NCBI GenBank assembly: GCA_015680905.1
Contig: CM027381.1
Span: forward strand, 65,895,501 to 65,959,500
Direction of reading: 5' to 3'
DNA from: Coptis chinensis
Taxonomy: Eukaryota; Streptophyta; Magnoliopsida; Ranunculales; Ranunculaceae
DNA length: 64,000 bases
Made by a program: the position numbers and the translations under genes. Shown here piece by piece: positions 392-64,000 of this stretch; positions within the stretch are counted from its first letter, which is position 1, and each line of letters starts with the position of its first letter. The notes under the pieces are model-generated. The model made no database searches. It saw only the letters and a program-made list of their open reading frames with translations, and had not been told where the DNA came from.

Positions 392-2305
392 GTCCATTGC
401 CTTTATTAAGTTATACTATACACTACTAGCAAGATGCACGTGTTGTGCACGCGGTTGACAAACACATTTATTTCATTATATATATAATATGTGATGTAAG
501 TAAAGGCTAGTAAAATATGTGAATTTGAGTGATGTAAGTATTGGTTAGTGTAATATGCATGAATAAGAACTTTAAAGTTTGTTTGACCATTACATATAGG
601 ACACATTCAAAAGCACATTGCATTATGGAATTGATTTTTTTTTTTTTTTTTTGGAGGTTTTTTTTAAAAAATATCATAAACTTTGATATGCCTTTTGATT
701 GATATTGATAGAATGATAGATGAGTTTCTGAGGCCTTATAAGGAAAAGGCAGAAGGAGGCTGAACTTATTGGTTTGAAGCGTACAGTGACAAAAAGAGCC
801 CAAAGCTTCAATTGTTCATGTAGCATGAATTCTTCTTTGTTGCTTCTATCACCACACTTTGAGAGGGCGGGTGAGGGCAATACAATGAAGCACTACTATA
901 ATGTATAAACTAAGAAGAACCTCCAATTATGAGTACTACTCTTGGCATCGAAAGTAAAAAAAAATTAATTCTACAGTAACATATTTGAGTCTGGAAATAG
1001 GTCCCTTCTCCAGGCCATAACTCTATACTAACATATGCTTCTAAGCTAGACTGTTTTTTCCCATCTTCTAAAATGACGATGTGCAATCTAACACTGGACA
1101 GTTTATATACAAACTAATTGGTGACTTGGAGTAGTCCTTGTTTGCATTTCATATTATCTTTTCCTAGCAATGGATAGTTCGATCATAAAATTACTTGATC
1201 CACATTTGAGATATTATAATTTATTTAAGCTCAATTGTTTTCAGTTGAATGTTAAGAGTGGGTACAAATTGTTAGATGTTGTGAACTCCAGTAGCGTGCT
1301 AAACATGTATTTGGTAAGTGGTTATTCAGAAATTTTAATTGATAAGCTCTATATCTACGAACTGAAGTTTGGAAACATATTCCAGCCAAAAAAAAAAGTT
1401 TGGAAGCATCATTTGAAAACAGAAATTGCTCAAAGCACATATAAAAATTGTCCAGTAACGTAACTATACTGAACTAAAGAAGAAAAAAGCTTGTGACAAA
1501 TCAAAACCATGGAATTATTCTGAACATATTCTAAATGAACCGAACATGAAATTTGGTGGCTTAAAAAGAATCTTAAATAAAAAGTCACTGACTACATGCA
1601 TATATTTTTGCTGGTTTGCACATAAATAACAAATTGCAATTGATCTAAAGAACATACATTTCATAACATTAAATTTATGGTACCAATATCTTCAAAAAAA
1701 AAAAGAGCGAGATTCAGTTGGAGGTTAATTACATTCTGTGTAAAGAACAGGTGTGAAGGCTATACAGGTGTGACCGCTTGCTTCATATTTTACAAAACTT
1801 ACGTAATGGGCAGTTGACACTCCTACGATTCGGTGCCTATTGGCCTATCCTGACTGGTCAATAACACATATTTTGATTCTTTTGTATGGCTATTTTTTCC
1901 CTCTGTTTCCTAGTATTCTTTCTTGTGGTTTCTTGGGATTCAAAGCCACTTCAGCATTCTGTAGCATTTTATATCAGATTGCAGGTGAGCAGGAAAATTT
2001 CTACTCCTCCAATGGTCCTCAAACCATGTTAGTCTACTTGGGTCTTTATTGCAATCTCATTTTTACCCATGTTGTTTCACACAAACTCCAACATAACATG
2101 CCAGAAATTTTCCTTCAAAAATTCTAGGGTCCTTCGACATTGCATACAACGTTTATGATTTAATATTGCTTGAAACAGAAGCTCTGTAGGGATGTAATGC
2201 AAAAGTGAAAATGCACCAATTGTGAGTAAACAAATGAGAAGTTTCTCTCTCCAATAAAATTCATACACAAGCACATGTTCAATAGAATACCTCAGCCGAC
2301 TTCAT

Positions 2306-3008
2306 CAATTAGATGAAGGGTACCGATAGTAATAATGGCGCAAAGCATCTGGAATACACGCTGGTGTGTTCTGCCAAAGATCAAGGTTCTGGTCCGTAAT
2401 CTGCATGCAAGTAAATTACATGATTAGGGCACCAAGGGAAGACTTAAAAAAGAAACAAAGAACCTGTTTTGCTTCTTTTTTTTAAAAGAAATTGTTGTAC
2501 CACACACTCACACACAACAAATTAGTATTTGCGATTGCCTGCGGATAATGTACTTTTGACAAATCTGTTTCCTTTTCAAAATGCCAAGTTTTTATTTGAT
2601 AATTGGTGTCATTTGGCAGATCAGGTCGAGTGCTTTCAGAAAATACCTATTTTTTATAATAGAACTTGTGCATCAAATTGTACGGTATCTTTCACAAATC
2701 ATATGTGTGTTAAAATGATGGCGGCAGGTCATGCTACAATCAGTATATGATACAGTCAATGAAACTTGTAAAAACTGAGATACTGAGGAAATATTAAACA
2801 TTCACACTCCTAAATTGTCGCCCACCTCCTCATAAAATGTCATTGTGGTGAGTCGATATCCTGCTAAAAGCATATACTCCTTTACAGCACAGTTAAGATC
2901 TTTACGCTCATTGTCTTTTAGAGAACCCAAATCAGAAAAGGGAGAATCCCTCTTCAACTGTTGCAAGGTAGGTCTATCAGTTGCAGAAACATTTAATGAA
3001 TCCCTCTT
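2306..3008 (-). pseudogene. captured LisH/HEAT (RELCH/KIAA1468-like) gene fragment
   Basis: Exon A (3008-2826) encodes VSATDRPTLQQLKRDSPFSD, then KDNERKDLNCAVKEYMLLAG and YRLTTMTFYEE, ending at a GTGGGC donor. Exon B (from 2400, after ATGCAG) encodes ITDQNLDLWQNTPACIPDAL, RHYYYRYPSSN and stops. The LisH-like helix NCAVKEYLLLAGYRLTAMTFYEE with TDQNLDVWQNTP is what I remember from the plant homologue of RELCH/KIAA1468 (At5g16210 type). Only two exons are present, so this is a fragment rather than a gene. Confidence 0.7.
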
Positions 3009-3033
3009 CTAATTAAATTTGGTTCGTTGGCTT

Positions 3034-3377
3034 TAAGTCTAGGGCAAACTCCCGCTTCAATAATAGCTTGGATTTTATCGTTTGTACCATCAGAAAGGTA
3101 AGATAATGCACAGCACACATCAGTTAAGACTTCTTCACCATTTGAATGAATCATATGCTCAAGCGCCGGAAGTGCAGGTTTTGTATGCCATATTGTTTTC
3201 GAAAGGAACATAACATCGTTAGTAATCCCAACCTCTTAATAACCCCACAAATAAATAAAATGCAACTCATCACTAACCTGTTCAAATGGAGGTTGTGGTT
3301 TGCCTCTGCAGAAATTGGATAGAGTTAATGTTGCATTTCTCAACATAGAGAATTTGGCATGCTCATTCAACTGTTGG
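3034..3377 (-). pseudogene. captured importin-alpha exons (ARM repeats)
   Basis: The first exon (3377-3278) encodes [20 protein letters not shown] then [13 protein letters not shown], ending at a GTTAGT donor. The second (about 3192-3034) encodes [20 protein letters not shown] and [20 protein letters not shown] followed by VCPRL. Both are hallmark armadillo-repeat strings of plant importin-alpha, the nuclear import receptor that binds nuclear localisation signals. The acceptor of the second exon has decayed (CAT where CAG is expected), and a conserved Trp of NATWTLSNF is Leu here. The coding sequence breaks off and joins the LisH-protein fragment within about 25 bp. Confidence 0.8.
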
Positions 3378-3530
3378 CTAAACCAACATAAAATTAGACA
3401 ATCAATCAACTACCTCATCATAGTTCTTATTACCAATAGCTTAACAAAACACAAAAAGATCATGAACTTCTGTCAAGTAAATTAAGAATAAAACGTATAT
3501 GAAAGACGATTGTAAGAGCCAAATATTTAC

Positions 3531-3727
3531 CCCATAGAACGATTGAACCCAAACTGCTCTATCAAACGCGCTACCTCTTGAGCTACAACATCTTGATCAT
3601 CCCTTCCAGCCTCTAGAGCAAACCTTACAGCCTCCTAGGCACACCTTTCAATCTCCTGGGCACACCTTTCAGCCTCCTGAGAAATCCTCCTCAGCTCCTC
3701 TACGTTTTGATGGCACTCACACCCATT
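3531..3727 (-). pseudogene. captured coiled-coil exon, gene not recognised
   Basis: A 197-nt exon-like unit is bounded by AACAG| at 3728 and |GTAAAT at 3530. It encodes a charged helix, NVEELRRISQEAERCAQEIE..., with one in-frame stop and ending ARLIEQFGFNRSMG. The middle repeats a unit of about 8 residues (EAERCAQE/IERCA), visible as repeated DNA. Its end phase (GG|) joins the importin-alpha exon to its left in frame (GGC CAA CAG). I do not recognise the parent protein. Confidence 0.45.
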
Positions 3728-5055
3728 CTGTTCTGATCAAGGATTGAAATAGAAATTTTACATATAGTGCCTCTAACCAACAGAAGTATCAATTTATATA
3801 TTGGACTCTAGATATCTCTTTCAAGATTTGCATCATTCTATAGTTGGTACATAATCTTACGGAAAACCTTCGCAGCGTGTTAGGTGAAAGTATGACTCCT
3901 TAAACTCAAAAATAGAAAATGTAATGTAAAATATTAAACTCGTAAATTTCCCAAAAATTATATTTTACATGCTTTGTTAGACAGATAGTTCAAAAAAGTA
4001 ATCAGATAATAAATCATCTAAGTTACAGAGAAGATAGGAAAAGCAGGTATTCCCAGGGACCGTTTCACGAATATATAGTATGGAATTTTAATGAACGTGG
4101 TATATGTTGCAAGAACTGAAAACATAATCTAGTTACTTTACTTCATAAAGCATCAAACACAATCAGTCATTTAATGAGCAATGTATGGAAACTGAACACA
4201 TAACATATTAAACACAATAATTATTACTATTTAGAACAACTAAGCAAAATAACATTCTTGTGTAAATTTGGAGTCTGCTGGCAGATTTGGAAATCGTTAG
4301 TTCAATTGATGGTTATATCAAAGCCACAAAGACCGCAATTCCAATGCAAGTTCATCGAAGCTAGTTATTTAACCCTGTTCAATTCCTTTGGTCTTAAGTC
4401 ACAACTTCACAAGTTCCAAATAGGATTCCAGAAAAAGTTTGACGAAAGCAAAGAAGAAGCATGCCAGAGTCTCACATATAATCATATTCCTCAACATTGT
4501 TATCTCACTCAAAACTACATACTCATAGTTTTTACATCTTATAAGAACTCTATTATATATTAAGAGATTAAGACTAAACAACCCCTGAACATAGTAATCT
4601 ACTACTACACATAGAAACCATGAATTCCAATATTACCACAATCCTCTTCTTGATGTGTATTAGTCTTATATTTCTTAAAGCGCAAGAAGAGCTCCTCATG
4701 ACATAAGTTCTTTCCATAAGTTCTTCCACCCATCTCCACCAACTTCCAGCATTTCCATACATTCCTTAGAAGCCATCAGCTTGTGCCCCATTGCCGTCTT
4801 CCCTATCGTTAATTTCTAGTACACCAAGAATGTTACATACCACTCGAGCACCCAAAACCGATATACCTAACCTATGCTAATTACTTTTTTTTTTTTGGTT
4901 AAAAAAGGGGACCAATTCAAGTACACTTGTTAGTTGGACAGTTGTGATAATTGGAAAGTTTCTCTTAAGATCCGACAAAGAGAAGTGTTAATGTTGAAGT
5001 AAAAAAAATAGCGGTATAATATACAGATGTATGAGTATTTAGAATCTTACAGGTA

Positions 5056-5115
5056 TGCTCCTTTACACATTAGGAAAATGTGTCCGTCCTCATCCCACAC
5101 AATAATGATAGCTGC
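5056..5115 (-). pseudogene. captured P4-ATPase (ALA flippase) fragment
   Basis: Twenty codons on the minus strand read AAIIIVWDEDGHIFLMCKGA. This resembles the conserved segment SVIVRDEEGKIFLLCKGA of plant aminophospholipid ATPases (ALA family), close to the lysine used for nucleotide binding. An AG lies immediately upstream. The match is short, so the identification is weaker than for the neighbouring fragments, though strand and context agree with multi-gene capture. Confidence 0.45.
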
Positions 5116-5526
5116 TTTTGTTTGCTTATATGTCGAATTTGTCGTCGTTTACTTGGTTGTAGAGGCCCCACATCCATCTGCAGGAATGAAAAGTCTCTGC
5201 GGTGAGATGCATAAAGGAAATTGTGTTTGATCACAACGGTTTATTTTGGAAAAAAAAAATGCATACCTGAGTTACTACATCCTTTTGCGTTTCCATGTTT
5301 GTTTGCCAGAGCAAAAGAGTGTCCGCTACTCAATGTTATGGTTTAACTTGATCTCAAAGAGCCCAAAAAGAAAGGGGGGAATTCGTTGTTCTTGAAAGCT
5401 GGGAGAGAGAGAGCAAAAGGAGCTTAATTGCGTGGGAAGACAGAAAGAGAGAGAGAGAGTGTGTGTTACGCGGGCGATTGACAATTTATATGTTTTTTAT
5501 AAAGGCATTTACACTGGATACATTAA

Positions 5527-6169
5527 TCAAAAGCTTTTTATTGATAAGTAAGAGATAGTAAATTCCATTGAGCAAGTAATTACATTGACGCCCAATGTAC
5601 CGAATTCAACTTTCATGCCATAATCATTGTTAATGGAATTTTCCTTACATGGAGTATCCGATCTGAATAAATCTTCTCCCATTCTCTGCTCTTCTTCCAT
5701 GATCTCCACCTTTCGAGCAGCAATGTTCTTGTAATGGACTTCAAAGTAAGTTTTTTTCATAGCTACTGATCCAGGGGTTGAACACTTCTCAACTTCTTCT
5801 AAGTACTTGTTCTGTGAAAACGACGACCATCTTTCCCAAGATAATAAATCGTTCTCATATCTTCCAAATGAAACCGATTACTTGAATCTAGGATCAGAGG
5901 CAATTGGTTTTTCTATCTGCTTATATCATTTTCAGTGCAAAACCCATCAACAATTTTCAAAAACAATGAACATCATCTAAAAATTCAATTGAGAATCACA
6001 ATATAAGAATTCATGAATCAAAACTCATGCAGGTAGTATGAAAAATGAAGAAAGTTCAGAAAATAATACTGAGATCAAATTAAACAAAGGGTATTGCAGA
6101 TATCATACAAAGGAGATATGGGTTTACCTCAAATTCATTTCTGAGAGTCTCTGCCATCATTTCACCCAT
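5527..6169 (-). pseudogene. captured WVD2/TPX2-like gene fragment (start codon and second exon)
   Basis: Exon 1 (6169-6128) begins ATG and encodes MGEMMAETLRNEFE, ending at a GTAAAC donor. Exon 2 begins at 5916 after a GCAG acceptor, in the same phase, and encodes IEKPIASDPRFK, a stop, then SVSFGRYENDLLSWERWSSF and a segment with KYLEEVEKCSTPGSVAMKK and YFEVHYKNIAARK. These strings match the N-terminal region of plant WVD2-like (WDL, TPX2-family) microtubule-associated proteins as I remember them. The C-terminal TPX2 domain is absent. The in-frame stop early in exon 2 and the missing 3' part make this a fragment. The intact parent gene should exist elsewhere in the genome. Confidence 0.7.
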
Positions 6170-7214
6170 AACTCTTACAGATCAAGTTTCAAGAGCTATT
6201 ACTCTGATGCAGAAAAGAGAGTGAAGATTTTGTGCTCAACATGGGCTACCAGTCCACTTGCTAGTCCAAGTGAAGAAGATTAGAATGCAGACAAAACAAA
6301 GAGATATAACCAATTAAGAAGCAGATGAATAAGGAAGGAGAGTATGTGCTTTGGTCTGAATTAATATAAATTCCATAAAACAGTATGCAACAGAGTACGT
6401 ACACTTTAATTTGGTGAGCAAGCCGCTTTCGATGATGCAGTGTCCAGTGGAGAGGGAATCGGCTTCATTGTAGTAGAAAACAACCTTTGTTAATTGATTC
6501 CACACATGAGTGCTGACTGACTGGTGAGTGAGTTGGGTGCATTCTTGGGCGCAAACAGCCGCTGATTTTATTGGGCTTTGGATAATTCGATGGCAAATGT
6601 TGTGCAACACTCACAGTCAAGTAGTCAACTACTATTATATCTCGCACCCACTTGCTTTAAGCCTTTAACCATTCCCGTTTACAAATAATCAGCAGTGGAG
6701 TAGAGAGGGGATCTCCGGTTTAAGAGAGAGAATGAGGGGAGATTTCTTTTTTGATAACTGAATGAGGGGAGATTTGAGAGAGATAAAACTCATAAAAGAG
6801 AAAAGAGAAAGACATCTGTGATATGTTTTTTTTGTTTTTTTGGCTTTTAGCTTTTAAGAGAGAGAGAGAAATGGGCGCATAAAAAGAGAAGAAGATGAAG
6901 AGAGAGACGGTTGGTTTCTTTTCATTTAAATTCGGTATAAATGGTAATAATTTGGCAGTTAATGTAAGGCTAAGTCGCGAACAATTCAATAGTGGCGTGG
7001 AATTGATTTCCGACTTAAAATTACATATACGTCCTTAAAGTACTATGTAATTTTAAGGGTATAAATGGTATGAAATTTTGAAATGACGAAGTAGTCCTTC
7101 TTAAAGGTATTGAATAATTGATTTTAATTTTTTATTAAGGGCATTTCATGGTAGAAAAAAGGTTGGTCTAATTTAAAGGTCCATGTTAATTATGGTATAC
7201 TATACTAATAGAGA

Positions 7215-9411
7215 TACTGTAGTTTCAATTTCCAACTTCCGACTCAATTTGAAACATGGTGATATGCTTGGTTGAGTTATAAACTAGAACTAGTTTAAAC
7301 ATTTCTGGTAAACAATCTTTAATTTTTTTTTTTTTTTTATTTTTTGAATCATTTAGGAGTATAGAGAGGCCCAAACGAGGCCCAAACCTATTGAATATCG
7401 AATTCTATTGCATCCTCTATAATATTTAGAGCCTTTTCTTCTAACAATCTAAGACGGAGAAATAAGTACAAATCAAAGATATTATAAATTTAGGCTACAT
7501 AAATTTTTCATCAAGAACTATCTAAAGCTATTTTTTTAAGTAAATTTTCTCTTGAATTTCTTTTCCAGAGACGGTAATCAACGAGAAAAATAGATAAATA
7601 AATACAGTCCCTCCTTCTAATTAATTCGGAGAAAAGCAATGTTCAAGTATTTACAGAATTACAGCTCCTACCAAACATGCGGTCATTTTCTTATCGTTCC
7701 ACATTTCCACTATTTATTTCCTTACATTTGGTATTCAAAGAAAATAGGAATCACACAAACGATCATCTATTTTCATTTTTCAATGGTGACAACTCAATAA
7801 CTCAGTAAGTCATATCATAACTTAATAAGTCTCCCTTCAAGAAAAAAAAGGCAGATTTAAATTCTTACAGATGGTCTCCAACCAATCAAATGAAATAAAA
7901 ATATTCCAACTTTATGTTACTATGAGCCATTTCTGATGATCTGTTTCATATTATTAGATCAGAAGAAGAAGAAGACATGTTCTTCATGATTTGTGTGAGG
8001 GTTGACTTTTGACCTTGATTTTATTTCTCAAGTGGGCTCATTTAGTCAATAGCATAACCAAAAAAGAAAAGAAAAGAAAAGAAAATTTCAATACGCAAGC
8101 TGCAAATGTGTTTTGTTAGTCTCAAAAGTTATCAATTACATTTTACAAAGCCAAAAAACTAATCAATGTGTCTTCGTATTGTAAAATTATTGTAACAGTT
8201 TTAGACGAAGAAATCCATTTGCCAAAAGCATGAGGAGTGCCATGTTCGATCTAAACATATGCATTGCCTAGCGAAACTCACATTTTACTTAATTTATCAA
8301 TGACATACTATTTTGATGCGACAGTTTCTTTAATGTTGTAGACATAGAAAGTTTAACGGCCTTAATATATATATATGGGTGCCTATATAAAACTTTGATT
8401 CTTGAAGGTTGAAAAAAATATTAGTATAGAGTTCGATACATGAGCTCATAAACTCATTATCATACGCCAAACAAGTTTAATTAAGGTCAATTCAATAGCA
8501 ATGCGAGCCGGATGGACAACCGTATCGCTCTTGGAAAACACACGGTTTGACCTGAATCTAATTAACCATAAATAATACGACCACTACTAGATGATTACCA
8601 CTGGATGATTACAGACTGTATATGTTAATGTGAAAAAGAAATAACGGTGATCGGAATATAACAACGTCGGCATGAGTTGACCCGTAAGTAATGGCCATGT
8701 GACGTTTAAACTCTGTACGAAACTTCAACGGAGCTTACTAACATACAACTACTAACATTAGGTGTGGGCCGGCTAGTGCGGCTTGAAGACCTCTCTTTCC
8801 CTCCCTCACTGATTCCAGCCAATACATCTGTTTTATATTATGGTTCCTGTAGTCACTAGTTCAATGTAAGCGTATCCAAGTAGCCTCTATTTTCTGTTAG
8901 ATTGCGCTGCAAGCAGTTTGATGTAATGCAATCTCGGATGTATACATAGCATACGTACAATACTATTAACTGTGGACTGATCTATTCTCTAGTGTGGAAT
9001 TCAAGTGTGGAATGTGTTGAAAAAATGTAGATGCAATTGGTTAATATTACGTGACGTTTGGAGTATAGGATCGACATGAATATCTAAAGCTTTGAGTTGA
9101 ATCTGTGTCTTCACTGTCTTGCAAGGACAAAAAGGCTTGTATGTCTTAAACGTTGAAGTTGAAATTTTCCCTTTTCAAAGTAAAAATAAAACAAATTGTT
9201 GTAGGTTTCTTTAAGCGCATTTGAGGCGCCGTTGACATTTCTTCTTATTTTAAAGGCTTCGTGTGTGCGTTTGTGTGATGGGTGTAGTTTGAACTTGAAT
9301 AAACTAGTCTAAAACAGTAGGCTTTTTCTATCATAGGCTCTCTTTATAAGAACAAGTTGAATAGATTTGTGGAAGAGATAAGTTGGAAGAACAAGAAAGA
9401 TTTTCCAAGTC
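7215..9411 (+). promoter_or_regulatory. upstream region of the WRKY72-like gene with W-boxes
   Basis: No coding sequence was recognised in these 2.2 kb. W-box elements TTGAC[C/T] occur at 8003-8008 and 8010-8015 (a tandem pair), 8547-8552 and 8677-8682, with a bare TTGAC core at 9232. WRKY proteins bind this element, so auto- or cross-regulation by WRKY factors is plausible but inferred. The A|T junction at 7214/7215 is the Helitron's 5' end, 2.2 kb upstream of the start codon. Confidence 0.4.
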
Positions 9412-12812
<3,401 letters not shown>

Positions 12813-20140: not shown

Positions 20141-22690
20141 CTTTTGAAAGATTAATTGGTAAGATTTGGTTTTATGAATTTGTATGAAGTCTGCGATGAG
20201 AGTATTTTTGTAAGTTGGAATTACCGACTGAAATTTATGTTTATGATTATAATAAACTTGTCTTTTTCGAGGCTTTTGTTTACAAATTTATATATATTTT
20301 TTGTTAATAAATTTTACCATTTTGGATTATTATGTGAAGTCTCTAATAATGATCAAAACAATACTTTCGTTCTTCCGAGATAATATATGCGGAAACTTTT
20401 GGAGACTGAATCAAGAGACTTTTATGGGGAAAAACGATTCTTGTTGAAATAGATATTTGATGTGTTCCATTATGTTTTCTTTTGAATCCTTTCCCTGTTT
20501 CATATCATTGGTTTTATGGCCAACAATGTAGTTTGATTGCAATTTGCGGTGTAGAGTTTCCTAAATTATTTTTTTGTTTTCGTTTTTGAAACGTTTTTCG
20601 TATATTCATCGTCTTCTGGTTGTGAATGTCCATTAAATTTTAAATCCGTGTTCTTCTCATGCTTTTGAGTAAAGATGAAGGTCAGTGATATGCCTTTTTA
20701 AGTGGAAACGTGTAGGAAAAATTAACTGAACACGAAGCCTTTCAAATTTGGTCAATTTTTTGATGATGTTAAAAGTCTATGAAAGTTTTGGTCAAATTTA
20801 CTGGCTTTGGGTAAGCTTGTGTAGCTTTGGACTTCTAAAGGTAAGTAATGTGCCTTAACTGTTATGTGCAATGTCCAATCGTGATATGGTATTGTTAATA
20901 TCCGAAAGTTTGCATAGGCAATGAACCTTTTGGCGTGGTGATCTCTTACGCCCCCACCTCCAAGTTCATGGATTCATGGGAGTATTGTTGGAATAATTAG
21001 GAAGGGTATATTGTAGGATTTGAATTTAAAATGCAATTTTAGCCCGACTAAAAGGAGCAACCATTCATCCCGCTAGTTTGCTAGATTCGACTTCGGTCAT
21101 TGATGCATTCAAAAGTGAAACCTAGCTTGAAGGCTCTTTATCGTCATATTTTTAGTAGACCCAACTGTTTCCACCAAACGAAACTTGGCCGCAGGCTCTT
21201 ATGCGACATTATTAGTAGACCCAGCTTTTTTCAATTTCTCAATAAATATTTGTTTTTATTTTTTGATTATTTTATTGTAGCAGTTTTCTGTTTATAATCC
21301 GAAGGCTCACCCGGTCTTAAAAGCTCATCACCTAATTATACAAAAAGAATTGAAAAGCCATTGAAGCTACAACAAAATCAAAAGCTTCGTTTTTTTGTTC
21401 CCTGCCCTAGTTGAAATCGTTTTTTTGTTCCCTGCCCTAGTTGAAATCGTTTTTTTTTTTTTTTTTTCTCGTCTTGATTGATTGTTTTAGCTTTAAAGTG
21501 GGATTTTTGGTATTCTTTGCAGTGATTTGTGGAGCCAGGTAGAACTGCTCGAATTGGGGTTCTCTACAGTGGGTAAGATATATTGCTTTGCTTTATATTT
21601 TAACATAATGCCAATGAAAACTTTTATTTTTTTGCCCAACTAGCATCGACCCTTTGATTGTCAATTATGTTTGATATGTACATGCGTTTGAAATTATCAA
21701 ACACAGTTCTTTCCAATTTTGCCCCTTCATTTTCTTTTTCTGTATACTAGAAAGTAGAAACCTTTTCTTTGCAATGGAGGGTGAGAGCGGCTTCTTCATT
21801 ACTACTTGTACTACCATTGTTGTTGTTGTTTTCAACAAGATGGTTTATTCTACCATGGAAACTCTTCTTCTTGACACTGTTAGGAACTCTCTTGTTTCTC
21901 TTCTTATGATGGTATACCTTTCAATCTCTCTCTATGTTTTTTCTTGTTTAATTTTATGATTCATTGATTAAATTGTCAGATTGTGTTCATATGTGATTGT
22001 TATGTAAGTGTTGAATCTGTAATGTAGTTACTTTAACTCTTAAACAAAATTTTAGATTATATAATTTTTACTATGTTGATGAGATCTTGTTTTCAAGTGA
22101 AAGAATGAGACTAGAATTTGGCTAACGTTGTGATGCTCATTATCAAATTTTTGGTTTTGTAGATTGTTCCAACTGTATTAGGATTTTATATAATGCATGT
22201 AAGTAACGATGTAAACCTATCTAGTTTGTGCAAAGTTGATGAAGTTTAGTGATTTGAAAGCCAACAGTTAGTAACTTTTTCTTGTCTAGTTTATACCGCT
22301 TTGGACATATATAAAAAACCAAAACCAATCACGCCACCGGATGACCTAAAGATCGCGTGGTTACGCCTTAGGAACCGGAGAGGCATATTCATCTCTTTCC
22401 TTTAGATACTTCATGTATCATAATTTTTCTTTATAACAGAGAGATAGGATACCTATGAATGAATGCAATTCTACTAGTCATCTGTCTCGCATTTAGGAAA
22501 TGCTTTCAGGAAGGGTGCCCTCACCCAAATGAGAAAGGCCACGATCCTCGCCACCCATGCATGCCGCAGGTAGGCCTCCATGCTAAAATCTTTTAGTTTC
22601 AAAGCATAAGCCTTTACTCCACTTTTTTAGGAAAAAGAGCTTTCACTACTTTTCTCTAAACTTGACTTTCACTCTTCCCGCTATTTAAGC
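20141..22690. other. no gene recognised; short tandem duplication at 21388-21447
   Basis: A 30-bp unit containing TTGTTCCCTGCCCTAGTTG is repeated twice in tandem at 21388-21447. A small frame at 21774-21910 ending at a GTATAC donor (MEGESGFFITTCTTIVVV...) has no recognised relatives. At 22497-22570 a possible short exon between TTTAG and GTAGG encodes CFQEGCPHPNEK, which recalls part of an HD-ZIP IV homeodomain but is too short to call. Confidence 0.35.
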
Positions 22691-37640: not shown

Positions 37641-39014
37641 TGAAGGTCGTAAAATGAATAGTCTACCTACGAAATGAGCGATGAATCCTCAGCGTAAAGT
37701 AAACTAAACTTAATTCTTGATGCTATCTTGTTTATCAAAGATTTATTTCTACTCTCGACCAATTGAGATATAGTGGAGTAGATAGAGTTAGTTCCACTCT
37801 AGTGCTCTAGCATGGATGTTTTCTAATCTAACTAGTGGTTTTTAAGTCTATGAGAGTTTTCTGAAGGGAATTATACTACGATGCAACTACCCACAAATCT
37901 GACTAGTTAAACATCGATCGACTAAAGGGAATGCTCGTTGATTCTATGATAAGGAGTTAGAGGGGATTGATTCCACCTTAACTCAACTTAATCCACTAAC
38001 GGCGAATGCGTAAGTAATCGAATGAGCTGAAGCATGAACGTTGGTTATTCCTAATCCTAATTATACATGGCATTTCTACCAATTCATAACTAGCATGTGA
38101 ACAATTAAACCCGTTCTCATGGTGAACTAATCATTTCTAGAGTGGAATAGAAAATCGGCGACTCTACGATAATCGGAATCAAGCTTTCATCAAGGCTTCA
38201 CCCCCCTCTAATGGAGGTTTAGCCTTGAATCATTCATAATCATTTCCATTTATATTAAAACTAAACATAATATAAAGCATTGAAATTTATTTAATTAAAC
38301 AATAATGAAATCTAATTTAATGACTAAATTGAACTAAGGACATGAATTGAAATTAGATCTAGAATTGGAATTGACAAAATCGAAATGGATAAAGAATACT
38401 ACTTTATTGATCTAATCAAATGAAGAACAAGATTCAAAGGTTTAATCTAATAAAGGGATTTGAAACTAATTAAAAAAAACAATTAAATCTAGATCTAGAA
38501 GCTATTTTAATGGCTACTTTCTATTCTAAGCTATGAACCCTAATTCTCTAATTAATTAATCTACCATTAACAAAGACTTAAGCTTTTGTTCTTATACATT
38601 CAGATCAAAATTCGTGCATGGGCTTGGAGCCATGGGTTTGGGCGAGAGAATCGGGCCCAAAACCCCATCTTCGATCCAAAAGGCCTCTTCAGCTGCAGTT
38701 GACTTCCACAGACTTTTCGTCCACTTCTGCTCCTCTGATTGGGTCAAGGCTTGGACCATTGCAAAAGCTCTTTCGAGCGGTCGTTTTGACATAAGGTATG
38801 CCCAATTCGAAGTCTGAGTCCAAAGATCGGCTTTTCGAAGTTCTGGCGACTTTTGCTCCTTTATCTCGCTAAAGTGGTACATTTCACATAATGGACTTTG
38901 AAACACGAAATGCATAAAAGCAGCGTGTCGGTGTTAACTCTTACTTATTATTCACATAATTGGTCTAGCGGTATGATTATTAAGGGGTTAAAACTACAGT
39001 TTTGGCTCTTATCA
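37641..39014 (-). repeat. 3' LTR of element A
   Basis: Nearly identical to 48673-50061. On the minus strand it starts TGATAAGAGCCAAAACTGTA right after a purine-rich TTGGGGTGGTT. Its far end near 37641 is less well preserved than that of the other LTR. An open frame of about 100 codons (38915-38592) is shared with the other LTR. Confidence 0.85.
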
Positions 39015-48672: not shown

Positions 48673-50061
48673 TGATAAACGTAAAATGAATAGTCTACCT
48701 ACGAAATGAACGATGACTTCTCAACGTAAGTAAACTAAACTTATTACTGATGTTATCTTGTTTATCAAAGATTTATTTCTACTCTCAACCAATTGAGATA
48801 TAGTGGAGTAGACAAGTTCGTTCCACTCCTAGTGCTCTAGCATGGATGTTTTCTAATCTAACTAGTCGTTTTTAAGTCTATGAGAGTTTTCTGAAGGGAA
48901 TTATACTACGATGCAACTACCCACAAGATCTGACTAGTCGGTTATCGATCAACTAAAGGGAATGCTACGTTGATTCTATGATAAGGAGTTAGAGGGGATT
49001 GATTCCACCTTAACTTCAACTTAATCCACTAACGACGAATATCGTCGTAATCCGAATGAAGCTGCCCTGCGAGAACAATTTAGTTATTCCTAATCCCTAA
49101 TTATACATGGCATTTCTACCAATTCATAACTAGCATGTGAACAATTAAACCCATTCTCATGGTGAACTAATCATTTCTAGAGTGGAATAGAAAATCACGG
49201 CGACTTCTACGATAATCGAATCAAGCTTTCATCAAGGCTTCACAACCCCCCCTAATGGAGGTTTAGCCTTGAATCATTCATAATCATTTCCATTTATATT
49301 AAAACTAAACATAATATAAAGCATTGAAATTTATTTAATTAAACAATAATGAAATCTAATTTAATGACTAAATTGAACTAAGGACATGAATTGAAATTAG
49401 ATCTAGAATTGGAATTGACAAAAATCGAAATGGATAAAGAATACTACTTTATTGATCTAATCAAATGAAGAACAAGATTCAAAGGTTTAATCTAATAAAG
49501 GGATTTGAAACTAATTAAAGAAAAACAATTAAATCTAGATCTAGAAGCTATTTTAATGGCTACTTTCTATTCTAAGCTATGAACCCTAATTCTCTACTAA
49601 TTAATCTACCATTAACAAAGACTTAAGCTTTTGTTCTTATACATTCAGATCAAAATTCGTGCATGGGCTTGGAGCCAGGGTTTGGGCGGAGAATCGGGCC
49701 CCGAAACCCAATCTTCGATCCAAAAAGGCCTCTTCAGCTGCAGTTGACTTCCACAGACTTTTCGTCCACTTCTGCTCCTCTGATTGGGTCAAGGCTTGGA
49801 CCATTGCAAAGCTCTTTCGAGCCAGTCGTTTTGACATAAGGTATGCCCAATTCAGTCTGAGTCCAAAGATCGGCTTTGGAAGTTCTGGCGACTTTTGCTC
49901 CTTTATCTCGCTAAAGTGGTACATTTACGCACATAATGGACTTTGAAACACGAAATGCATAAAAAGCAGCGTGTCGGTGTTAACTCTTACTTATTATTCA
50001 CATAATTGGTCTAACAAGATGATTATTAAGGGGTTAAAACTACAGTTTTGGGCTCTTATCA
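48673..50061 (-). repeat. 5' LTR of element A
   Basis: On the plus strand it runs from TGATAAACGTAAAATG to GGGCTCTTATCA. It pairs with 37641-39014. Differences are concentrated in short patches (e.g. around 49035-49075) while long stretches are identical. Confidence 0.85.
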
Positions 50062-51142
50062 TATATCAACAATAACATGCAAATTTGAATCACTCAAATG
50101 CGTATCTAAATACATAAGCATCTTGCGGATATAGTATACATATCTTGAGATAAATCGAAAACTAAACATGCAAAGTATTATACCTAAACTAAAATCGACT
50201 CTTGTATTGCATAATAAATCGATTTCGACAATACTCATTGAGATTGCGAATGTCCTATAGAGAGCGACTTTTACCCCGTAGTAGGTTTAGAAACAACTTA
50301 CCCAACTCAGTTTTAACCCTTGTTGGAATGTTCTCCTCTTTCTTGACAAAATCGACTTATTAGACAATACGGTAATAAATGGCGTAGAAAATGTTAAACA
50401 TGTAACAAGAAACATTTATAATTGAGAAAGACATATACCCATGCAAAACAAGTACCATTAATAAGTAAAATATACATTAATATGCAATTCATGTCCGAAT
50501 GTCGTATATAAATATTTACCGTATCTAACTTGATTCATGCATAATTCGAGGCTAAAACTTAAATAATAATCTATAAAGTTTTCCTAATACTATATACATG
50601 GCATACATGCAGAAAAACATAATAAAAAAATTACAATAATATTGAAAATTTGGAACCTCAATGCGTCCGCGTTTTAAGCCTTTAACCTGAAACAAACGTT
50701 TCAATTAAAATCAAGATTATTAATCCCAAAGGATTATCGAATTTTTCAGTCTGAGGGCCAGATATTTAGGCCTCGAAATGGATCAAGGTTGATCGGAGAT
50801 CTTTGGTGGTTGAACAGAGCAAAGAAAACAAAAAATGACTTCATGGACGCTGGTCATACCTACCCTACGTAGCGACTCGATCTGAGTGCACGTGTCGAGT
50901 TAATTCAGAATGATTTCAACTTTTTACAGCACTCTTATAATCGCCTGAATTGTTGTTTCCCAGTCCTAACTTTTGGAACCTGGAAGTGAAACGAAAAATT
51001 TGTGAGATTACAGGTCTATTTCGAGGGAAAAATACGAATTTTAACCAAAAGGAAATGAAGGAAGAGAATGGGGGTTCCCCCTTGATGCAACTTCCGATCT
51101 GTAGCACAAGTTCTATGGCTTTAGAACAGCAGCAGCGCCATT
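50062..51142 (-). mobile_element. element B: 5' leader continued, with primer-binding site
   Basis: AT-rich leader sequence resumes at the right edge of element A. At 51125-51140 the minus strand reads TGGCGCTGCTGCTGTT, two bases from the LTR, in the same position as in element A. This shows that the leader begun at about 37.1-37.64 kb continues here and that A split it. No gene is seen. Confidence 0.6.
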
Positions 51143-52591: not shown

Positions 52592-55500
52592 GGCTACATC
52601 CATGTTTGGCTCATTTGATATTCAGAGAGTGGGCAGAGGTCACCGATTTCTAAGACGTGCTCTACTTGGTAGGCAGGTCGGTCAACTACTTCAATGAGGA
52701 GTTGTCTCGGGCGCCGCCTGGTGTTTGAGTAGCCAAGTAGGTTAGACTGTCTGTGTGGCGATTCTCGTCGCTTAAAAAGTGGTGCATGGTGGCCCTTTTG
52801 AAAGATAGAAGTAACTGATTAACAACTTTAAGGTATTTAGAAAGGTTACCTTCGTGGGTAGTGTACTCTTTAGCAATCTGGCGAACGACCAGTTGCGAGT
52901 CACTAAAGAGTTGAAGTTCTTGTACACCCAGCTGTAGCGCCATTCTAATCCCCATAATTACTGCCTCTTACTCCGCTTTGTTATTGGAGGTCGCAAAGTC
53001 GATGCGAACTGATTTCTCCATTACTTCTCTGGCGGGCGATACTAATACGATGCCAATGCCACTTCCGCCGGGGTTGTTGGAACCATCTACAAAGAGGGAC
53101 CAAACAGTCTTGTCGCTGTGCTTGGGGGGTAGGGTGTCTGTTTCGGGCTCCCAATGTAGATCGTCCACCGGGAAGTCGGCAAGGAAGTCAGCTATGACTT
53201 GTCCCTTCTGTGAGGTACGTGGGACGAACTCGATGTGGTGTTCGCCGAGCTCTTCGGCCCAAACTGCCATGCGAGTTGTCTTATTTTCCTTGTGAAAAAT
53301 CTTCTTCAACGGGAGATTAGTAAGTACTTTGATTGGGTGTGCCTGGAAATATGGCCTGAATTTCCTTGCAGAGTATAATAGTGCTAAAACTGCTCTTTCG
53401 ATGTAAGAGTAGTTCTTTTCGGCTGGAGTTAATGTCTTACTCATAAAATAGATTGGTTTCTCTGCGTTGTTGTCTTCCTTGAACAGGACCGAACTAATAG
53501 CGAAGTCTGATATTGCTAGATACAGCCCCAGTGTTTTGCCGTCTGTTGGTTTGGCTAAGACGGGAGGTGTTGTGAGGTACTCTTTGAGAGTGGAAAAGGC
53601 ACGACACACCGATCGTTCCATGAGAACCGCCGCCTTTTGAGGAATTGCAGGAATGGTCGGCACTTGTCTGATGCCCTAGATATTAATCGGTTAAGTGCAG
53701 CAACCATGCCTGATAGTTTCTGTATCTGCTTCTTTGTCTACGGGTTAGGCATATCCAAGAACGCGCGAATTTGATCTGGGTTAGCTTCGATCCATACGGT
53801 GAGACCCGGATAGCCTAGAAATTTCTTTGGAGGGCGCTCGAAAAGGCATTTTTCGGGGTTTAGCTTCATGTGAGTTCGGCGTAACCTGGAGAACGCTTGC
53901 TCGAGGTGGGTGAGGTGGTCACCTGCTTTTTTGCTCTTGACGACCATGTCATCGATATATACTTCCATGGTGTCTCCTAACATGTCTTGGAACATATCAG
54001 TTACCATTCGTTGATACGTCGCGCCAGCGTTCTTGAGGCCGAATGGGAGAACGTTGTAGCAATAAACCCCCTGTTCGGTAATGAAGGATATTTTCTCTTG
54101 ATCTTCCTTGGCAAGTGGTATTTGGTTGTACCCACTATAAGCATCCATGAAGGAGAGGAGTTCGTGGCCGCAGGTCTGGTCCACAAGTCGGTCGATCCTT
54201 GGTAACGGGAATCTGTCTTTGGGTGTTTCCTGGTTGACATTGGTGAAGTCAACGCAGCGCGCATCGCGTCGTTTTTTTGGAACCGCCACTATGTTAGCGA
54301 TCCAATCTGGGTAGTCGACCTTCCGGATGAACCCGACTTGCTTGAGTTTATCGACCTCATCGTTGATTGCTTTTTGGAACCGTAGTGATAGTCTCCTCGG
54401 TCGCTGTCGCACTGGTTTTGCACTAGGGTTGACGTTCAACCTATGGCAGGCAACGTTGGGATCTATTCCTGGCACGTCAATATACGACCAAGCGAAAACA
54501 TCTTTATTCATGGACAAAAAGTTTACAAGATGGGTTTTGAGTGTGGGGTCAAGGTTAGCCCCAATATAGACGAACTTAGGGTCGTCTTCCGTTTCTAGAT
54601 TCACTCGTTGCCTCTCGTTGGCTGGTGCCATAGCTTGTGCTGGGAGAGCGTCCTCTGGTGGTTTGAGCTCTGTGGATGCGTTGTTGGTCGAATGAGTGAT
54701 TGGAATTGCTGCAGGAGTTGGAGCGTTTTCTGTGGTTACGACCACAGAGTCTGGGATGGCGTCTGTGGTTATGACAACAAAAACTGGATCATGCTGCCCA
54801 AGCTGTTTCGGCGGTGGTGGATTTGACGGGGCGACCTTTGTGGTTTGCACAGGTGGAACGCTGGTTACAGGGGCGATCTCTGGTGTCTTGACGAGTGAGT
54901 GAGTGGCTGCCTTGGCAACTTTCGGAGTCTGTTCAGATGGATATGCCTTCTTGTTAGAGCCTCCAGCGCTCTGAGTTGGTGCGTTGCCTCTGACTTCGGC
55001 GACCAGGTCTTTGGCCATAGTGTAGCTGGTGGGCTCGTCTCTTATGCTGATTGGGGCCTCAGTGGTCTTGTTTGCTGAGTGGATTTGATTACAGTGATAG
55101 GCTTCCAGTTGGTTGCTACGAAGCTCCATCGTGCCCCTGGGGCCTGATTTGGGTGCTTGCGACCTGGGACGTTTTTTGGCAGGTGGAGTGTCGTCAGAAA
55201 TTGCCGCAACTTCTTGGTTGTCTGATAGACCGTGATGTCGCAAACCTTCTTGCTGCTTAATATACTTGTCGACCCGAGCATATAGCTCTGATAGGGTTTT
55301 TGGGCGCGACCTCATCAGCGACCTGGAGAGGTCTGTGTTGCGCACCCGACAGGCGTTGGAGAATGCCAGTGTGACAAAAGACTCTTTGAGGCCACTTTCC
55401 ATGCATAATAGTTCGGCTTTGAACTGACTTAGGAACTGGCGAATGGTTTCATTCTCTCCAAACGATAGCTGGAAGAGTGAATCCAGATCTTCTTTTTTAC

Positions 55501-56161
55501 GTCTGTTGTGCACGTACTGGCTGACAAATAGATCAGTGAGCTGCTTGAAAGTTTTGATTGAATCCGACTCGAGTGAAAAGAACCAATCGAGTGGGCCATC
55601 TTTGAGGTCATGGCGGGGAAGCCGCCGGCCGATGAAGATGGTCAAACTCGGGAGTCAGAAAGGGCCAGGCTTTGAATGTAGCGGGCTATATGTTGGCCGG
55701 GGCATGTGCTGCCATCATACATTGGAAAACGTGGCTGGACGAAATCTTGAGGAGAGGATTTACTGAGTACCTCTGTGGTAAACGGGGAAGCGCGGTACGT
55801 CTTGAGCATTTTCTAGACGATCTGGGATGCGTCTTTTCGTACTGCGCTCTGGTCAATCCGTTGTGACAACTCATTAATTTGTTGATTAACTTCGTTGATG
55901 CCGTTCTCAGCAACGTTACCAGCTGGCTGTTGTTGAGCGTCAACTTGTGCCCGAAGAGCAGCATTTTCTTGCCTGAGCAAGGAGATGCTCTCATTGGTTA
56001 AGCCTAACTGGTTTGCGAGGCCTTGAACTTGAGCTTCGAGGCTTGCCATGCTTCGTGGACTTGAGATATTTACTTTTTTTTTTTTTTTTTTTTTGGTGCT
56101 TAGGTCTTTTGGTTTGTGTGAAGATAATGACTCAAGTAATCGAAACCACAGACGGCGTCAA
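52592..56161 (-). mobile_element. element C: Tat-lineage Ty3 fossil, gag-pol
   Basis: On the minus strand, gag starts near 56049 (MASLEAQVQGLANQ) and continues with a gag core (PLDWFFSLESDSIKTFKQL, SLFQLSFGENETIRQFL). Reverse transcriptase follows (PLPRIDRLVDQTCGHELLSF, MEVYIDDMVVKS), then RNase H (LYLAISDFAISSVLFKE) and a second, archaeal-type RNase H (WSLFVDGSNNPGGSGIGIVL). The double RNase H marks the Tat branch. It is broken in only a few places (about three or four), so it is better preserved than B. The primer-binding site lies near 56145-56160 (TGACGCCGTCTGTGG on minus). Integrase and the 3' LTR are not seen, because the element is interrupted by B at 52591. Confidence 0.8.
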
Positions 56162-59435: not shown

Positions 59436-59621
59436 TCTTTAATATATATAGAAAAACGAGGGTCGAGTGAATAGTGAATAGTGAATGTGTGTGGGTGTAG
59501 GGGCATTTTGGTCATTTCACATTTTTTAAAATTTTTAAAGAATAAAATAATAATTTAATATTTATAAGCTTTAAAAAAAAGTATATAGATCCCACGTGGG
59601 TACCACGTGTACAATAGCTAG
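59436..59621 (+). mobile_element. 186-bp mini-Helitron
   Basis: A|TCTTTAATATATATAG opens the element and CTAG|T closes it. Eight bases before CTAG is a perfect 7-bp stem, CACGTGG/CCACGTG (59593-59609), with a 3-nt loop. The 5' start resembles that of the large Helitron at 426-7214. The element lies 49 bp after the B3 stop codon, so it may be within the transcript's 3' UTR. Confidence 0.7.
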
Positions 59622-61833: not shown

Positions 61834-64000
61834 CTTTTTCGCTTCACAGCACCGCCATTAAAACTTCGATCAAAGCTTCCGCAAGTGGATTTCTCTTACT
61901 TCAAAATCATTATTGATTCATTGAATCATCAATTTGAGGTAAATCAATCATCGATTTCAAATTCAATCACTCATTTACCTGATTCATCAAATCTTTAGTT
62001 CATTTGGTTCAAAACAAAACCAAACATCATGAATCCTATAACAATTGAAACTTTAACCGCTCAAATTGTTCAATGACAAGCTCAACTTCAATCCCAAATA
62101 CAACAACAATCCATAAACTTACCATCTCCTACTTCAAATATGTTTCATGTCAACAACATCACCAATCTTGTTCCTGTTAAGTTGAACTGTGAAAACTATC
62201 TTGTTTGGAAACAGTTGTTCTTACCAGTTGTGAAAAACAACAGTCTTTTGGGGTTTGTTGATGGTACAAATGAATGTCCATTGAAATACATTATTGATGA
62301 TGATGGAAATGAAACTTCCACTATCAATCCTCATTTTGTTGATTGGAATAAGAAAGATCAGATGGTTTTGATTTGGCTTAATGCAACGATATCTGAAAGT
62401 TTGCTGCCTTACATTGTTGGTATGCCTACGGCAAGAGATTTATGGTGCACATTAGAGAAAAGGTTCTCTGCATTCTCTAGAGCACAGATTCATCAGTTGA
62501 AATCCAATCTTCAAAACACAACCAAGGGAAATAAAACTATGACAGACTACCTACAACAACTCAAACTTCAAGCAGATGGACTTGCTGCTGCTGGTGCTCC
62601 CATCAATGATGGTGATCTTGTATTCCAAACATTAAAAGGATTGCCTGATGAATATAAACCTTTCTGTACTTCAATCAGAACCAGGAAAGATAATGTTACT
62701 CCAGATGAGTTACATAGTCTATTACTCAGTGAGGAACTTGCTTTGGATGATACTCCAAAAGCAATTGGAACAGAACCAAATACTCATGCTTTTTCTTCAG
62801 TGAAGACTTCTAACTACCATCAGAATTCCAACTATAACAATAGAGCTCCTATGAATAGTAGAAATTATGGAAATTCTCAAAGAGGTAGAGGAAATGGAAA
62901 CAGAGGTCGAGGAAGGGATAGAATTGGATTAAGAGGAAATTATGGTAATGGGAATGATACTCCGTCATATTATAACAACAATGGAGCCAGTACTAGTTAT
63001 AACAATAATGGAGCCAGTATTAGTTATAACAACAATGGAAGTTCAAGTTACAATGGGAACTCTTCTTATCAGTCAAATGGAAATGGCAACAGGCCTACAT
63101 GTCAAATCTGTAATAAAATTGGTCATCTAGCTGTTGATTGTTACAACAGGATGAACTATGCTTTCTCTAGGAAAATTCCTCCACCAAAACTTGCAGCAAT
63201 GGCAACCTCTTCTTATCACTCTAATGATCAAACCTGGATTGCTGACTCTAGAGCTACTAATCACATGACCTCAGACTTGTCTAATCTCTCAATGCACTCA
63301 GATTATCATGGAACAGACAAGGTTCTTGTCGGCAATGGTGAAGGTTTGCATATTCAACACACTGGTTCTGCCTTTATTAATACACCTCTGTCTAGTTTCA
63401 AGTTAAATGAAGTATTGCATGTACCTAGTATAGCACATAATCTATTATTTGTACACAAGTTTGTTAGTGATAATCACTGCTCCATCACCTTCACTCCAAC
63501 TCACTTCTTTGTGAAGGATCTTACATCACAGAAGACACTTTTCCAAGGGCACACTGAAGGTGGGCTCTATCCTATCTCTTTCAAGTCCTGCATCAAATAC
63601 AATAAAATTCCTACTGCCTTCATTTGCACAAAAGCACCTTCTTTCTTGTGGCATGTGAGATTGGGACATCCTGCTCAAGCAGTTCTTAGTCAAGTGTTAG
63701 CTACCACAAAGCTCACTCTTGAAGGCTCTTCAAACAACTAAACTTTTTGCTCCGCCTGCCAACTTGGCAAAAGTCACAAGCTTCCATTTGTTTCTTCTCA
63801 AATAAGAACTATTGGTCCTTTACAACTTGTCCACATTGATTTGTGGGGGCCCTCTCCTATTTTTTCTGTTTCAGGCTTTAAGTACTATGTAAGTCTTGTA
63901 GATGACTGGTCAAGGTTTTGTTGGTTTTATCCAATTTGCAATAAATCTCAGTTTCATACTGTATTCTCTGTTTTTAAGAACAATGTGGAAAATTTCTTTG
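61834..64000 (+). mobile_element. Ty1/Copia element, gag to start of integrase, cut by window edge
   Basis: Gag begins near 62140 (LNCENYLVWKQLFLPVV, FSAFSRAQIHQLKSNLQ) with an Asn/Gly-rich stretch. A CCHC zinc knuckle follows (CQICNKIGHLAVDC, about 63100-63140), then a protease region (about 63235-63290), a pre-integrase segment (FLWHVRLGHPA, about 63650) and the start of the integrase core (VDDWSRF, about 63900). It resembles the RE1/RE2-type Copia group, though the lineage is a guess. It looks fairly young, with at least one break in the visible part. Confidence 0.85.

Follow-up and report, generated by a model that had tools for sequence, protein, structure and literature searches.

Helitrons, the closest described systems, are defined in PMC6591975 as carrying a GC-rich hairpin of 16–20 nt located about 10–15 nt before the 3' end. 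For Helraiser, the hairpin has been reported to serve as the terminator, and flanking DNA is taken along when the 3' end is bypassed (PMC4778049); a stepwise gain of gene fragments has been described for maize Helitrons (PMC3288121). In the 64-kb stretch of contig CM027381.1 analysed here (the window), a Helitron-like stretch of 6789 bp occupies positions 426–7214 on the minus strand, with its 5' end at 7214 and its 3' end at 426. We consider it likely that this stretch is a non-autonomous plant Helitron, which captured genomic DNA, including introns, of some five unrelated genes before decaying. This reading is based on its A/TC...CTAG/T ends (the slash marks the border), the lack of terminal inverted repeats, the lack of a detectable RepHel protein, and an importin-alpha exon–intron–exon block that ends abruptly. 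A Helitron with pieces of several genes had already been proposed in an initial annotation of this DNA, and a non-autonomous element of this kind is still the best reading overall.

The borders of the element on the minus strand read A/TCTCTATTAGTATAG... at 7214 and ...TGCACAACACGTGCATCTTGCTAG/T at 426. The 5' terminus starts with the expected TC, the 3' terminus ends with the expected CTRR (mostly CTAG in Helitrons), and the insertion site, judged on the present flanks, lies between A and T; the empty site predicted from these flanks would read ...CTACAGTA/TAGTGTATAG... on the minus strand. The pattern A/TCTCTAYTA fits exactly at one site in the 64 kb (7214) and with one mismatch at four further sites, but this consensus was partly modelled on the present element, which makes the 5'-end test partly circular. 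At the other end, a GC-rich hairpin (stem of at least 5 bp, 2–10 nt upstream) was found at 3 of the 129 CTAGT sites on both strands of the window, including that at 426, and at 10 of 507 CTRRT sites. No inverted 11-mers linking both element ends were detected between positions 201–900 and 6701–7900; in each of the three inverted 11-mers that do exist between these regions, at least one arm lies outside the element, and inverted pairs of at least 40 nt are missing at the element. The element thus shows the lack of terminal inverted repeats that is typical of Helitrons. Six-frame Pfam scans of the element revealed no match to RepHel, Rep, helicase or transposase; because neither Rep nor helicase was matched in any of the six frames, the element would be at most non-autonomous.

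A 10-bp direct repeat, TATACTATAC, is present near the ends (412–421 and 7196–7205), and the target duplication of Pack-MULEs is about 9–11 bp long. The locus might thus be taken for a Pack-MULE, or for a MULE without terminal inverted repeats (non-TIR MULE), with captured genes and a 10-bp target duplication, and Pack-MULEs are indeed known to bear gene pieces (PMC13317346). We regard this as quite improbable, since the comparisons above contain no trace of the long terminal inverted repeats of a Pack-MULE, and the likeness between the two 10-mer copies, unlike that of a target duplication, is longer than 10 bp and continues within the element at one end and within the flank at the other. Judging from the sequence, we would read the repeat as a likeness between Helitron ends rather than a target duplication.

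The 10-mer is part of a broader resemblance between the 3' flank (about 370–434) and the element's own 5' end. Their alignment begins at TC once it takes in the final 9 nt of the element, and its score was reached by 0–7 of 1000 shuffles (three scoring schemes with three targets each) and by 0 of 500 in another run. The stretch 371–434 may represent the start of a second Helitron, seen from its 5' end and running off the window. Two abutting or nested Helitrons, with the flank as the 5' end of the second one and the 3' border located at or inside the junction, would be compatible with the capture reading, and abutting Helitrons are known in bats (PMC4778049). We find this arrangement plausible, though less likely than not: among 6384 overlapping 80-mers of the window the segment 46821–46920 (plus strand) scores 28 versus 27 for the flank and another one reaches 25, the likeness was spotted post hoc, and joining both flanks did not lengthen the alignment. 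Elsewhere in the window, a 17-nt palindrome (7-bp stem) followed by 8 nt and CTAG/T occurs at 59593–59621 on the plus strand and may mark where another Helitron has its 3' end.

Regarding the content of the putative Helitron, the importin-alpha block is the clearest case. The joined exon pair encodes 81 aa that match residues 211–291 of rice importin-alpha1a without gaps (E 1.8e-49), with 69 of the 81 residues being identical; searches with both exons gave 0 matches at a cut-off of 1e-50 and, with a slightly different query at 1e-45, six matches (the best at 1e-49). The junction of the two exons falls between residues 241 and 242, and in the DNA a 93-bp gap that opens with GT separates them. 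This splitting of contiguous importin residues by a 93-bp intron shows that genomic DNA, in the form of an exon–intron–exon block, was captured. The match ends with ...GVCPRL at 3035, and a LisH exon begins 26 bp further on, following TTAG. In addition, the tryptophans at 225 and 266 (rice chain numbering) are replaced by L and C, respectively. On the strength of this match, importin-alpha is the single certain source among the captured pieces.

The remaining sources are graded lower. The LisH and WVD2-like sources are probable. For the latter, which we take to belong to the WVD2-like family at both 6128–6203 and about 5560–5887, no Pfam match was obtained, and the sole PDB match of the peptide (an engrailed construct, E 0.042) is not meaningful. 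The LisH pair, presumably RELCH-like, has a LisH-like motif in its translation and matched Pfam ARMC9_LisH at E 0.14, and a short peptide spanning the join did so at 0.039, both below the cut-off; the full joined pair had no Pfam match, and the best PDB match of the LisH peptide (E 0.27) is not meaningful. The identity of 5051–5196 as P4-ATPase is doubtful on sequence grounds: the likeness to the CKGA region of P4-ATPases covers about 20 residues, and a PDB search with a limit of E 10 matched nothing but a phospholipid-transporting ATPase (E 0.099, 21 residues), while Pfam gave no P-type ATPase (DAC at E 0.23 in one scan, nothing in another). Moreover, CKGA occupies residues 742–745 of 1570 in the matched P4-ATPase chain versus about codon 57 here, indicating either that two sources meet at this point or that a single gene of another identity is involved; the piece may belong instead to the gene whose in-frame ATG exon sits directly upstream. 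The coiled-coil exon that had been reported without a recognised family is indeed present, carries an in-frame TAG, and matches Pfam LsmAD at E 0.0045, below the cut-off. Taken together, the earlier claim of pieces from at least four unrelated genes holds for importin-alpha, probably for LisH and WVD2-like and doubtfully for P4-ATPase, and no HEAT exon was seen in the element. The coordinates of all features are listed in Table 1.

Table 1. Features of the putative Helitron, in window coordinates.
Feature	Position	Strand	Characteristics	Basis
Putative non-autonomous Helitron	426–7214	minus	A/TC...CTAG/T; no inverted 11-mer joining the ends; no RepHel or transposase match	
5' terminus	7195–7214	minus	starts with TC, AT-rich, placed after A	end reading and pattern scan
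3' terminus	426–449	minus	15-nt palindrome (5-bp arms, 5-nt loop), 5 nt, CTAG, then T	
WVD2-like exon	6128–6203	minus	start codon at 6169; acceptor CAG, donor GTAAAC	family putative
WVD2-like exon (SVSFGRYENDLLSWERWSSF...)	5560–5887	minus	lower edge approximate; out of frame with the ATG exon; TAA near start	
10-codon ATG exon of a gene without assigned name	5267–5296	minus	donor GTATGC; behind CT-rich leader (about 5400–5465)	
Exon initially annotated as P4-ATPase	5051–5196	minus	one in-frame TAA; in frame with ATG exon 5267–5296	
Coiled-coil-like exon	3531–3732	minus	in-frame TAG; acceptor CAG, donor GTAAAT	
Importin-alpha exon	3278–3370	minus	residues 211–241 of rice importin-alpha1a (chain 4b8j_A)	PDB match
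Adjacent importin-alpha exon	3035–3184	minus	residues 242–291; acceptor AG missing; match ends abruptly at 3035	
LisH (RELCH-like) exon	2826–3008	minus	open frame; after TTAG	Pfam ARMC9_LisH below cut-off; parent putative
Following LisH/RELCH-like exon	2291–2400	minus	two stops near end; 425 bp past the first	

Within the window, the pieces are confined to the element: when five fragment peptides were compared with the 64 kb by tblastn, the matches were the element itself and, at chance level, one to the LisH peptide (E 0.27, 50922–51020), and nine Pfam scans of the flank frames (7215–10800 on both strands and 1–425 on the minus strand) gave 0 families up to E 1. Several observations nevertheless weigh against a Helitron with captured genes. 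The 3' hairpin is short, being a 15-nt palindrome with 5-bp arms that ends 9 nt before the 3' end, and 86 of 200 shuffles folded as well as the terminal 45 nt did (z −0.12). Hence, of the termini described in the initial annotation, A/TC and CTAG/T were recovered, whereas the hairpin is not significant. Neither end recurred in the 64 kb (ungapped search with up to 27% mismatch; blastn), and a scan for CTRRT plus hairpin gave no convincing older Helitron 3' end between the fragments. The recognised pieces span 2291–6203, which is 1.0–1.9 kb inside the ends, and do not fix the borders on their own; the outer 1.0 kb on the 5' side and 1.9 kb on the 3' side have no identified content. Also, given the resemblance of the 3' flank to the element's 5' end, two Helitrons may together make up the 3' border. 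The insignificant hairpin and the distance between the ends and the recognised pieces would also suit a patchwork of pseudogene pieces, generated by break repair or segmental duplication and bounded by such ends through chance. We judge such a patchwork unlikely, given that TC, CTAG and the A/T site co-occur at ends that enclose the pieces and that none of the five peptides recurs in the window beyond the chance-level match. A search for the 3'-end pattern in viral contigs gave 0 matches, which is uninformative for a plant element. A near-palindrome of about 44 bp was observed in the 5' part of the element (7014–7057; opposite-strand self-match, 81%).

As stated in the initial annotation, all the named pieces lie on the minus strand, and the three plus-strand frames of the element gave 0 Pfam families up to E 1. 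An argument from this shared orientation was dropped, because five sources on the same strand correspond, by arithmetic, to p of about 0.06, which is not significant. The splice signals that had been claimed are largely in place: AG precedes 7 of the 8 pieces expected to have an acceptor, the exception being importin exon 2, and GT follows all 7 pieces with a clear downstream edge; these edges were picked by eye to fit, and the counts are therefore not an independent test.

The retained splice edges, together with an ATG exon behind a CT-rich leader and a second ATG exon, raise the question of whether the fragments form a functional chimeric gene. Stops or frameshifts were found in four of the nine pieces, affecting four of the five presumed sources, and the other five pieces are open. 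In joined models, the frame opened by the WVD2-like ATG terminates in the second exon after 10 codons, and a TAA also interrupts the WVD2-like frame itself; single stops occur in the P4-like frame (TAA) and in the coil frame (TAG), and two lie close to the end of the second LisH exon. Among the few joins attempted, a non-exhaustive set of splice forms, none kept a frame open for long from one source into another. With two importin tryptophans altered and one acceptor AG missing as well, a functional chimeric gene is highly improbable. As far as sequence can tell, a chimeric RNA from the element is possible, and a chimeric protein is unlikely. The frames of most presumed sources are broken. A present-day effect, if any, would more likely arise through RNA (captured leaders, splice sites, or small RNAs acting on parent genes) than through a chimeric protein. 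The most far-reaching version, a Helitron outside maize with pieces of at least five genes that are all sense-oriented behind captured leaders, transcribed and spliced across sources now or formerly, and acting on parent genes through RNA, seems unlikely to us.

If the locus is indeed a non-autonomous Helitron, a RepHel protein supplied by an autonomous relative would have displaced a single strand, starting at the TC of the 5' end and stopping at the 3' hairpin and CTAG, and would have inserted this strand between A and T. The gene pieces may have been acquired in several steps, through either read-through past the 3' end or filler DNA in break repair. Minus-strand CTRRT sites with hairpins number eight in the window, three of which fall within the element: 426 is its own end, 2932 is located in the LisH exon, and 6249 is unexplained. 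The lack of a convincing old 3' end between the pieces speaks against simple serial read-through, and from this we infer that filler-DNA capture is at least as likely.

The surroundings of the element in the window include WRKY-like, PPR-like and LTR-retrotransposon reading frames, named from a reading of their translations. The element is located about 3.6 kb upstream of the WRKY-like frame starting at 10863. Two direct copies (37713–39005 and 48743–50051; 94–100% alike per listed block and about 11.0 kb apart) are probably the LTRs of a young LTR retrotransposon, and, by translation reading, Ty3-type polyprotein frames (minus strand) and a Ty1-copia-type gag frame (plus strand) occur at 52968–55654 and 62077–63741. 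The sole Rfam match in the window at the gathering score is the snoRNA Z159/U59 at 20339–20419, outside the element; near it, short blocks at 18.6–18.98 kb and 19.8–20.1 kb are 79–88% alike. A tRNA scan of the window gave 0 hits.

How does this locus compare with captures described in other plants? One literature search turned up no report of Vitis Helitrons with fragments from different genes. In Arabidopsis, plant Helitrons with captured gene pieces are likewise known, but PMC2575219, citing Hollister and Gaut 2007, gives five capture events among 565 elements and a mean length of 950 bp, versus 6789 bp here. In Brassica napus, at least two fragments are reported in 35.25% of 1793 gene-capturing Helitrons, similar to the situation here; the captures there, however, average 230 bp, and 73.26% of the captured exons are UTR in what was an exon-only search (PMC11986588), whereas the present element holds several coding exons, some with introns between them. 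The earlier statement that multi-gene capture is less documented in eudicots is partly right, agreeing with the Arabidopsis figures but not with those from Brassica napus. If confirmed, the present case would add one more multi-gene capture with introns retained, in what is probably a eudicot plant, and would bear on the frequency of exon shuffling by Helitrons outside maize, leaving the general picture unchanged. The maize Helitrons described in PMC3288121 share with it the TC and CTRR ends, an A/T insertion site, the presence of several gene fragments per element and, as proposed here, their stepwise gain. They differ in that the steps are visible there in related elements and the present element is represented by a single copy in the window, in that the usual palindrome of 16–20 nt is longer than the present hairpin, and in that ZmhelA1, with eight predicted gene fragments, is putatively autonomous and the present element is not. 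Overall, the locus seems to be a decayed example of this known process rather than a new type of element.

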